A stretch of DNA of 39,581 nucleotides from a virus, in the IMG/VR virus record IMGVR_UViG_3300038856_000054, positions 1-39,581 of that record, one strand, 5' to 3'. Position numbers and translations under genes: made by a program. Below are positions 10,627 through 13,400 of this stretch, one piece after another. Numbering within the stretch: position 1 is the first letter of the stretch; each line of letters starts with the position of its first letter. The notes beneath the pieces were generated by a model. It searched no databases. It saw only the letters and a program-made list of their open reading frames with translations, and was not told the DNA's origin.

Positions 10627-11289
10627 TCACGCTCCACCCCGCATGTCCTGGCCGCTGTCCACCAGCCACATGCAAACGCCGGGTTGTGCAAGGCGGCTGT
10701 GCAGGCGCGGGTCGTTGTAGCGAGCCAACAGAGCTGCCTTGCCAAGGTTGCTGATCAGTACCGTTCGGCGTCCGCGCTTACGACGGTCGTCGATCAAGTC
10801 CAGCAGCGCCGCCGTCATACCATCGGCGTCTCGCTCGCGCCCAAGGTCGTCTACCACCAGCATCTGGACAGTGCAGCACCTGTCCTGCTCCGCCAACTCG
10901 TCGCCGTAGCGCGCTGCGAACAGCCGCTCGACCTCGCGCGCGCCGTGGTAGAGCGAATCGGCGTGGCGATGAAACGCCACGCTCGCCGCAAACGTCTTGC
11001 CGCGCCCAACGTCCCCGCACATCACCAGGATCGGCGTGGACCTCGCGAGCCACGCGTCAACCGCCTTGGTGCACCTGGTCGGCTCCACCTCGCCACGCGT
11101 GATGCACTCTATGTCCTGGTCGGTGATCGGCAGATCGCGCAGCCGAAACTCGCGGTCGAACCGGCGAGAATCCTCCGCGGCGCGCTGCTCGCGTGCCCAC
11201 CATTCGTCGTACTCGCGACCGAGATCGCGCTCGGGCTCCTCGCTCGCCACTTCAACCGCCTTCGAGATCACGTCGCTGAGTGTCTTCAT
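10627..11289 (-). CDS. DnaC-like AAA+ helicase loader
   Basis: The 220-residue protein should load the host replicative helicase at the phage origin. Visible AAA+ motifs are Walker A GDVGRGKT (~92-99), Walker B MLVVDD (~143-148), a sensor-type LISN (~178-181) and an arginine-finger-like NDPRLHSRL (~192-200). The N-terminal ~80 residues are charged and helical, as expected for the helicase-binding part. Length is slightly under E. coli DnaC (245). It follows the O-like initiator with a 4-nt overlap, the gene pair arrangement of many temperate phages. No helicase or primase gene was found, so host DnaB and DnaG are the likely partners (inference). Confidence 0.85.
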   Translation of the reverse strand: MKTLSDVISKAVEVASEEPERDLGREYDEWWAREQRAAEDSRRFDREFRLRDLPITDQDIECITRGEVEPTRCTKAVDAWLARSTPILVMCGDVGRGKTFAASVAFHRHADSLYHGAREVERLFAARYGDELAEQDRCCTVQMLVVDDLGRERDADGMTAALLDLIDDRRKRGRRTVLISNLGKAALLARYNDPRLHSRLAQPGVCMWLVDSGQDMRGGA

Positions 11290-12146
11290 GCCAGGTCTCC
11301 AAAGTCGTCGGGCTCAGCGGGAGTGCCGCTGGCGGGGGCCGCCACCGCGCCGGTGCGACTGGCGCTCAGCCACGAACCCGGATCCGATGCCCAGAAGTTG
11401 AACGGGAAGCCGCGCGCCTTGGCACCCTTGTCGGCGTTGCGCATGTAGCCCTGCACGCTGGCCCTGACGGCCCCCTCAGGGTCCTGCGGGCGCTCCTGCA
11501 TCGCCCAGCCCACAGCATCCTCCAGCGCCCGGTAGGCCGTGTGGGTGCGGCGCCAGCCCTTGCCGCCGGCCGCCTGCCGCTCGGCGCTGAAGATCTGCGC
11601 CACGGTCTGGAGGTCGAAGTCGGGAGGGGGGAGCACGCTCTCCTCGCGCGCGCCCGCAGGCCCCGCTGGTTCGGAAGGTACGGCACGGCACGGTACGGCA
11701 CGGCTGGAGTCACCGTCCGTCACCGAACGTCTCGCGCCGTCACCGTCCGTCACCGCGCGTAACGGTTCTGTGACGTTTCGTTGTGGCTCGTCACGTTTCG
11801 TCACGCCCGCGGCCTGTCGGGCTCTCCACTCCCGGGTGCGCTGCGCATTGGACTGCACAGCCTCCTGTGCCTCCAAGTAGTGGGGCATCAGGACCCCAAG
11901 ATCGTCCGTCACAAATACGTGACGTTTCGTCACAGCGTCCCAACCCTTGGACACAACCTCTTCCGGGAGCCCGGTGTGAAGCGCGACAGCTTCGGCTGCC
12001 GTGCAGCCCTCAAAGTCGAGGCGGCCGGCGCGGTCGAGCTTACGCAACAGGTGCATCAGCACGGTCTGCCCCTGCCACCCGAGCAGCTTCCACGTGGTGG
12101 TGTCGCGCACGTACAGCCGGACGTAGCGCTCATTGCTCCAGTCCAT
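11286..12146 (-). CDS. O-like replication initiator (winged helix)
   Basis: ATG at 12146 follows AGAGG and gives 286 residues; an upstream extension lies in the intergenic inverted repeat. The N-terminal ~90 residues look like the winged-helix of phage replisome organisers (LLGWQGQTVLMHLLRKLDRA, then LPEEVVSKGWDAVTKRHVFV), followed by the typical AQRTREWRARQA basic stretch. Residues ~115-160 are a low-complexity linker encoded by the 10-bp phased repeats described separately. The C-terminus (~170-286) carries a helical region and SFNFW-like FPFNFWASD near the end. By analogy with lambda O it would bind the repeats and recruit the loader encoded next. The family call is by layout and context. 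Confidence 0.7.
   Translation of the reverse strand: MDWSNERYVRLYVRDTTTWKLLGWQGQTVLMHLLRKLDRAGRLDFEGCTAAEAVALHTGLPEEVVSKGWDAVTKRHVFVTDDLGVLMPHYLEAQEAVQSNAQRTREWRARQAAGVTKRDEPQRNVTEPLRAVTDGDGARRSVTDGDSSRAVPCRAVPSEPAGPAGAREESVLPPPDFDLQTVAQIFSAERQAAGGKGWRRTHTAYRALEDAVGWAMQERPQDPEGAVRASVQGYMRNADKGAKARGFPFNFWASDPGSWLSASRTGAVAAPASGTPAEPDDFGDLA
11675..11933. repeat. Phased iteron array, candidate replication origin
   Basis: Within the initiator gene, GTCAC/GTGAC-like motifs recur every 10 bp. Exact GTCAC starts are at 11709, 11719, 11739, 11749, 11789 and 11799, with degenerate copies at 11729, 11759, 11769/70 and 11779. A 17-bp unit is perfectly repeated at 11709-11725 and 11739-11755. A second cluster has GTCAC at 11908, GTGAC at 11919 and GTCAC at 11929. 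Next to the array, GGTACGGCACGG is repeated at 11675-11686 and 11690-11701. The 10-bp period does not match codons, so protein repetition alone does not explain it. This is the arrangement expected of an initiator-binding origin (lambda O gene analogy). Confidence 0.6.
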
Positions 12147-12568: not shown

Positions 12569-12825
12569 GATCTGTTCCTTTCAACGGGCTCGTCCCACCG
12601 GCAGTGGCAGTGTTGGCGCCGCAGGCACTCGCGCCCGTCGCCACGCACGCGCGGGCTGTCGTGCTTCTCGAGCACGCGTAGCGCCCAGATGAGCCCGCGC
12701 CGAAAGCCGCTCTCATCCCACCGGATGGCCTCGCCGCAGTTCGCGCAGCAGTCCTCGGTCAGGCAATGCCGCACGACCGCCAGCGGCTCGCCGCACTCGT
12801 CGCAGTTTGGATCGGGGTCGGTCAC
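12565..12825 (-). CDS. Zinc-ribbon protein, 86 aa
   Basis: It carries CDECGEPLAVVRHCLTEDCC followed by ANCGEAIRWD near the N-terminus and a later Cys/His group (ECLRRQHCHCRWDEP), so two metal sites are plausible. ATG at 12825 overlaps the previous stop (ATGA). Function is unknown. It is one of several small zinc proteins in this operon. Confidence 0.65.
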   Translation of the reverse strand: MTDPDPNCDECGEPLAVVRHCLTEDCCANCGEAIRWDESGFRRGLIWALRVLEKHDSPRVRGDGRECLRRQHCHCRWDEPVERNRS

Positions 12826-13400
12826 GTGCGCGCCTTCGTTTCTTCATCCCCAAATAAGCTCAGGTTGGGATCCTTCGTTTTGAACTTCTCATTCTGTGGC
12901 AGTGCTATGTAATCCACCGCTGAGCGCAGCGTCTTGCCCCACCGCGCCTTGGTCACTTTCATGTGGTCACGTTTTACAGCTGGCGTGCGTGTGTTTGCAT
13001 TATCCCAAAAGCTCCGCCCGGTGTTTTCGTCCTCGCATACCCATCCGGCACCACGCAGGCTTGCTCCGCTTTCTGTAGAGAGCGTGTACGTGATGATTCG
13101 GCGAGCTCCGATGGCACGCGCCGCACGCGCGCAAGCTCCCAAAAGCGCAGAGCAAGCGTTTGGTGTGCCGTCGGTCGCGACCCGCAGCACCTCTACCGTC
13201 TGGCGGTCGTCGTTGTTTCTATTGGTGGGGCGTCCCGCTATAGCCGCTCCAATCAACTTCCCGTCGGCCACCGCGCCAACGCACCACCAGGCAAAGCCGC
13301 CGGGGATGGGGGCGTGGTGCCGATGCAGCTGAGCAACTATGTCGTTGGCCACCGGAAAGGTAAGTGGCACCACACGGACGCCGGATCGCGCGTCGGTCAC
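12822..13400 (-). CDS. XF1762-family, GNAT-fold (Mom-like) protein
   Basis: The 192-residue protein matches by eye the XF1762-type phage family: LHRHHAPIPGGFAWWCVGAV near the start, AAIAGRPTNRNNDDRQTVEV, VATDGTPNACSALLGACARA, IGARRIITYTL and GASLRGAGW. The order resembles a GNAT acyltransferase fold, and relatives of this type have been linked to the phage Mu Mom protein, which modifies adenine in DNA to block restriction. DNA modification here is an inference from that link, not shown by a residue I can verify. GTG at 13400 has AGGAGG upstream. C-terminal ~50 residues are charged. Confidence 0.7.
   Translation of the reverse strand: MTDARSGVRVVPLTFPVANDIVAQLHRHHAPIPGGFAWWCVGAVADGKLIGAAIAGRPTNRNNDDRQTVEVLRVATDGTPNACSALLGACARAARAIGARRIITYTLSTESGASLRGAGWVCEDENTGRSFWDNANTRTPAVKRDHMKVTKARWGKTLRSAVDYIALPQNEKFKTKDPNLSLFGDEETKART

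Follow-up and report, generated by a model that had tools for sequence, protein, structure and literature searches.

A phased array and adjoining 5-bp tract inside phage initiator genes: very probably the start site of viral DNA replication

The initiator gene and its neighbours

The window analysed here is the whole 39,581-bp stretch of a viral record in IMG/VR (IMGVR_UViG_3300038856_000054), and the part of it that concerns us centers on a predicted replication initiator gene. The genes at the locus, and the parts of the initiator protein, are as follows:

11286..12146, minus strand: initiator gene, 286 amino acids (a prediction; relatives match initiator profiles)
10627..11289, minus strand: DnaC-like helicase loader gene (PHROG 50, E = 5.9e-16), which overlaps the initiator gene at its end
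12822-13400, minus strand: Mom-like DNA modification gene (PHROG 1384, E = 9.8e-32), close to the initiator gene
Initiator residues about 20-95: predicted winged-helix domain (AlphaFold, pLDDT about 96)
Initiator residues 100-112: basic helix
Initiator residues about 120-175: disordered linker, encoded by the phased array and pentad tract described below
Initiator residues 179-244: helical C-terminal domain

The window protein itself has no significant Pfam or PHROG match, and several of its relatives match the PHROG "replication initiation protein" family, the Pfam family Phage_rep_org_N, and DnaT and DnaD-like loaders. An AlphaFold model of the protein, built on an alignment of 40 sequences, is confident for the N-terminal domain and places its elements in the order of a winged helix. 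The best viral structural neighbours of the model include replisome organisers and replication initiators, and a fold search of the PDB returned only winged-helix transcription factors and similar folds, all with E above 0.1 and none a close relative. In ten relatives that were sampled, the next gene encodes a DnaC-like loader in four and a DnaB-like helicase in one more. The layout of a replisome organiser or O-like protein is therefore met, with a predicted N-terminal winged helix, a separate C-terminal domain and an adjacent gene of the DnaC/DnaB type. The initial annotation had called the gene O-like, and this description fits, down to the array-coded linker between the two domains and the adjoining DnaC-like loader.

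The phased array and the adjoining tract

Three DNA elements are found within the initiator gene:

11709..11804, no strand assigned: one-turn array of ten GTNAC-type slots (six GTCAC, one GTGAC, one GTAAC and two degenerate)
11677..11704, minus strand: pentad tract, GCCGTGCCGTACCGTGCCGTGCCGTACC on the coding strand, with a 5-bp period, immediately downstream of the array as the gene is read
11908..11933, no strand assigned: satellite group of three GTSAC sites inside the part that codes for the winged helix

On the plus strand, exact copies of GTCAC start at 11709, 11719, 11739, 11749, 11790 and 11800, while the slot at 11770 holds an inverted copy (GTGAC). The other slots read GTCTC at 11729, GTAAC at 11759 and GTTGT at 11780, with 11729 and 11780 forming the degenerate pair. 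Eight of the nine steps measure 10 bp and the remaining one, from 11759 to 11770, measures 11 bp, so that the "exactly 10-bp steps" first described hold for all steps but one. The six exact copies in that description were recovered; its four or so degenerate copies included the inverted site at 11770 and the GTAAC at 11759, which is probably a real site. The satellite group, noted from the outset as three sites at 10-11 bp steps, was found as GTCAC at 11908, inverted GTGAC at 11919 and GTCAC at 11929, with steps of 11 and then 10 bp.

GTCAC as such is not enriched in the window (103 occurrences against 104 expected), and it is only the clustering that is unusual. Seven same-phase sites occur within 130 bp, compared with a maximum of four in 200 Markov sequences of equal length. 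Of 5000 synonymous-codon shuffles of the window gene, however, 13 attained the same clustering, and the single gene, taken alone, is therefore merely suggestive. The paired motif GTSAC-N5-GTSAC has four occurrences in the 39,581-bp record, every one of them within the initiator gene, and its reversed control has none. Autocorrelation and a tandem-repeat search, which were among the checks proposed in the initial annotation, were both run and both gave a period of 10 in the array region: the autocorrelation function for 11705-11810 has maxima at 10, 20 and 30 bp, and Tandem Repeats Finder identified a period-10 repeat at 11709-11755 and a period-5 repeat at 11680-11704.

The gaps in the array have a simple explanation in the reading frame, beginning with the following slot:

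11729..11733, minus strand: degenerate slot, coding GAGAC, where GTGAC would be an in-frame TGA stop

The TGA frame also falls at 11759-11763 (coding GTTAC) and 11780-11784 (coding ACAAC). The coding strand of the window carries mostly GTGAC, and a 10-bp run of GTGAC necessarily puts an in-frame TGA at every third slot; 11729, 11759 and 11780 are exactly these slots, and the array resumes in phase beyond each of them. The GTGAC orientation and the 10-bp step thus account for the copies first called degenerate, with the inverted site at 11770 being the fourth. As statistical proof the TGA-frame positions were dropped, since they are an arithmetic necessity once both flanks are GTGAC, and they serve here only to account for the gaps.

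Across the whole window, the 36-mers with the strongest 5-bp periodicity are those covering the tract at 11677-11704. Paired GGTACGGCACGG units had been noticed beside the array, and these are real (11677-11703, 15 bp apart); the description needs correcting in that they belong to a conserved tract with a 5-bp period. No AT-rich tract lies beside the array, and the 60-bp segments at 11646, next to the array, and at 11706, inside it, are 77% and 70% GC, respectively.

Conservation among relatives and in other phages

DNA and protein searches with the window gene gave no match in named phages, and relatives were therefore drawn from IMG/VR and GTDB contigs, where a four-sequence profile gathered 42 viral and 5 cellular-contig loci (47). 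A 10/11-bp phased array is present in nearly all of them, mostly just past the winged-helix part at about nucleotides 340-460 of the gene. The linker protein is not conserved among the relatives whereas the 10/11-bp lattice is retained, which is the opposite of the outcome (linker kept, phasing lost) named in advance as a refutation of the origin reading. Orientation varies, with the coding strand being mostly GTGAC in the window and mostly GTCAC in most relatives. In two relatives (L466:4001-5341 and L485:4001-5248), a long insertion separates the winged helix and the array. T5orf172/MUG113 domains, which we take to be GIY-YIG-like, occur in two members of the window's initiator family.

In 40 non-redundant genes of the family, 160 of 335 GTSAC sites have a downstream neighbour at 10 or 11 bp, compared with a mean of 16 and a maximum of 26 in 300 protein-preserving synonymous-codon shuffles of the same genes. 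Together with the use of all three reading frames, this upholds the earlier assertion that a 10-bp period does not follow from codons. Pair distances pile up at 10 (142), 20/21 (131), 30/31 (104) and 40/41 bp with few between, and the pairs at 10 bp are oriented ++ in 73 cases, +- in 46, -+ in 16 and -- in 6. Strict phased chains of at least four sites were found in the gene in 30 of 45 relatives (the other 15 failed this test) and nowhere outside it in 346 kb. In these GC-rich genes, serine is coded as TCA at 67 of 216 positions in the array region versus 59 of 584 elsewhere. The flanks of the GTCAC core show just a mild preference for G after the core. The core itself is less strict than GTSAC, as one relative (L458, 4001-4996) lacks GTSAC altogether and instead carries GTTAC/GTAAC at 10/11-bp steps, and another (L476) fills its lattice slots with a mixture of cores; it is for this reason that the core is better written GTNAC and that the GTAAC at 11759 is considered a probable site.

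The pentad tract is also found in most relatives. In 38 family genes, lag-5 identity in the 39 bp after the array is 0.527 versus 0.269 with permuted codons (z = 22), and in 78 other genes with 10-bp arrays, among the matches listed, it is 0.439 versus 0.306 (z = 17). The pentads are mostly CCTAG and CCGTG in the family and GAGAA- or TACAG-like elsewhere, and by sequence comparison the period of the tract is conserved more than its sequence. Tracts that follow 11-bp arrays (loci L126 onward) tend to show lags of 6, 10 and 12 rather than 5, and the array step and the tract period seem to be coupled.

Arrays of this kind extend well beyond the family. Scanning IMG/VR for four exact copies of GTCAC at 10-bp steps returned at least 120 stretches, and an 11-bp step gave 106 of the same kind, as compared with 21 stretches for a 13-bp step and 22 for the scrambled pentamer CACTG at 10 bp, the controls being largely near-perfect tandems. 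Among the matches listed, perfect tandems make up 11% of the 10-bp arrays versus 40-68% of those in the controls (12 bp, 13 bp and scrambled). The spacers within a 10-bp array thus mostly differ from one another, and the arrays do not meet the criterion for a slippage-type tandem repeat, i.e., near-identical units including spacers. Non-redundant 10-bp arrays in ORFs of at least 120 codons, again among the matches listed, use the three frames 30, 27 and 34 times out of 91, and this three-frame use, taken with the differing controls, indicates that the signal is the helical turn and not a codon multiple. Some of the 10-bp arrays among the matches listed lie in non-coding DNA. A 12-bp step also gave many matches, considered as possible counter-evidence to phasing and rejected, as they are mostly VTGN/VTPP/GDGE repeats of structural-type proteins, on either strand.

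The 10-bp GTCAC arrays encode a 10-amino acid pattern, VTxxHxxSxx, and many of the proteins that bear them match PHROG families of replication initiation, primosomal, replisome-organiser or O-like proteins; some initiators of this wider class have a DnaT-like DNA-binding domain. For example, the E. coli phage Evi and phage pAEv1818 (L498:3221-3526 and L499:2493-2777) each have a pair of phased GTCAC arrays in a single initiator gene, that of "primosomal protein I", with one array in the winged-helix part and the other in the linker. Profile comparison of the "primosomal protein I" family with the window's family gave a probability of 92%, to which the linker contributes part of the score, and its helices and strands are predicted to follow one another as in the window protein, albeit in a weaker model. 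This comparison and the order of elements in the models suggest that the two winged helices are related. Some other array-bearing families have N-terminal domains without a shown relation to that of the window (e.g., DUF6291), and recognition specificity shared by such domains would be remarkable and needs explaining. The site, originally regarded as unusual, is no oddity of one phage and represents a widespread design in many phage initiator genes.

The ydaU gene of the Rac prophage (oriJ region) has no phased GTSAC; by eye, its linker carries a different repeat with GTTCAAACA. In a satellite-like chromosomal island of E. coli that carries capsid and terminase genes (L497:8194-8238), five intergenic GTGAC sites lie close to the island's end, every step between them being exactly 10 bp, and 618 E. 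coli genomes match, at least in part, a 401-bp query spanning this array region. It is possible that the island's array is a satellite origin that borrows a phage initiator.

Origin activity, rival readings and known systems

The features observed here are a phased array conserved as DNA rather than as protein, a conserved 5-bp tract following it, and a loader gene next door. From these, in the absence of binding or replication data, we infer that the array and tract form an intragenic replication origin, with the initiator assembling on the phased array of its own gene, and we regard this reading as probable. Counting against it are the lack of an AT-rich tract such as lambda has, the 15 of 45 relatives without strict chains and the array-bearing families whose N-terminal domains have no shown relation to the window's, and GC skew lends it no support. 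In the mechanism we envision, the N-terminal winged helix, itself a prediction, would contact a single GTNAC core, in most cases GTSAC, in each helical turn, and up to about ten protomers could in this way align on one face of a stretch of approximately 100 bp. As GTSAC is nearly identical on both strands, either orientation would serve. The assembled complex would then bend or underwind the adjoining DNA, and the 5-bp tract would provide a second contact, in our preferred view as the site at which the C-terminal domain opens the strands or binds single-stranded DNA. Finally, the C-terminal domain would bring in DnaB by way of the neighbouring DnaC-like loader. Binding to the array, the order of these events and the opening role of the tract are all inferences, as is origin activity itself.

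The most serious competitor is that the array is an operator through which the initiator or a repressor controls transcription of the replication genes, with the origin lying elsewhere. Phased arrays would suit cooperative repressors, and non-coding copies do occur in satellite-like islands such as the E. coli island with five GTGAC sites. In nearly all relatives, however, the array is found 340-460 nt into the gene and not at its promoter, and it is mostly followed by the 5-bp tract; an intragenic position with such a tract is what one expects of an origin and not of an operator, and we think the operator reading unlikely. The presence of the same core in initiator families of little sequence similarity, from phages of many environments, could instead point to a host nucleoid protein or host initiator as the reader of the array, which would still be an origin or a bending element. 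Yet the array is confined, within these loci, to the initiator gene, the suggested relationship between two of the winged helices (by profile comparison and matching helix/strand order) speaks for a phage-encoded reader, and no host protein specific for GTNAC is known to us. A host reader is accordingly rated as quite improbable, below the operator.

Two further readings have very little to recommend them. It could be argued that the codons of a low-complexity linker happen to yield GTCAC, given that the array does code for a disordered linker and that 13 of 5000 shuffles of the single gene match its clustering. Such a coincidence is hard to credit when a 10-bp step is no codon multiple and all three frames are used, when shuffles across the family reach at most 26 neighbours against the 160 observed, when TCA serine codons are concentrated in the array region (67/216 versus 59/584), and when arrays occur in non-coding DNA too. 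GTSAC is also a known type of restriction site, and a DNA modification or restriction function, possibly tied to the Mom-like gene at 12822-13400, might be entertained because that gene is nearby (PHROG 1384, E = 9.8e-32). Across the window, GTCAC is neither enriched nor depleted, and modification would leave the one-turn phasing and the 5-bp tract unexplained; this reading, too, can be given hardly any credence.

Returning to an intragenic origin as the preferred reading, it is quite possible, though slightly less likely than not, that the arrays define an undescribed but widespread class of phage origin. Such an origin would consist of two coupled elements overlaid on the coding sequence of the initiator: a one-turn GTNAC array usable in either orientation, with one winged helix per turn, and a variable half-turn (5-bp) tract that stands in for the AT-rich unwinding element and serves as a strand-opening or single-strand site. 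The linker (VTxxHxxSxx, SLAVPSRAVP) would be a by-product of the DNA code, and stop avoidance would shape the slots. No GTGAC/GTCAC arrays in phage origins were found in the open-access literature, a result that argues only weakly for their absence. For most environmental phages the origin is unknown, and a signature that combines GTSAC at 10/11-bp steps with a 5-bp tract in an initiator gene would let it be located from the genome sequence itself. It would also be a clear case of a DNA-binding code overriding a protein code, with linker residues, codon choice and reading frame all bending to a helical array. Moreover, if the tract does replace an AT-rich element, it bears on how initiators open GC-rich origins.

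Several known systems share parts of this design. The origins of iteron plasmids have direct repeats that bind monomers in helix phase, and the phasing is needed for function (PMC5043065). Their iterons are longer, generally lie outside the rep gene and sit beside an A+T-rich region, unlike the five-base core of the window array, which occurs in either orientation within a gene. In Bacillus subtilis oriC, a short-period tract beside double-strand sites is read as single strand by the loading protein DnaD (PMC10201434). The window likewise has a short-period tract adjoining its sites, and some relatives carry DnaT- or DnaD-like domains; the B. subtilis element, in contrast, is made of TnnT motifs opposite DnaA-trios in a chromosome origin, whereas the window tract has a period of 5, is intragenic and varies in sequence.

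The closest published case is gene 18 of phage L. Intragenic repeats in gene 18 of phage L/ST64T and of P22 have been proposed as an origin, those of phage L being six imprecise 11-bp repeats (TGTCCAACGGA) (PMC8022706). Units of about one turn are common to this gene and the window array. The sequence differs, the repeats belong to one phage lineage with no comparison across families, and no 5-bp tract is mentioned in the portion of the paper available.

Finally, the origin of phage lambda has its initiator sites in the middle of gene O, followed by the helicase-loading gene P, and consists of four inverted-repeat iterons of about 19 bp, bound by O dimers, with an AT-rich tract (PMC7466680, PMC5043065). 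As in lambda, the window array lies inside the initiator gene, between the predicted winged helix and the C-terminal helices, although its role as a set of initiator sites is inferred. Unlike lambda, the window has 5-bp cores at one per turn (10/11-bp steps), up to about ten of them, with no inverted repeats of about 19 bp, and its tract is GC-rich with a 5-bp period instead of AT-rich. With neither the iteron form nor the AT-rich tract of lambda met, the window element is best described as one that would work like the lambda origin, and not as an origin of the lambda type itself.
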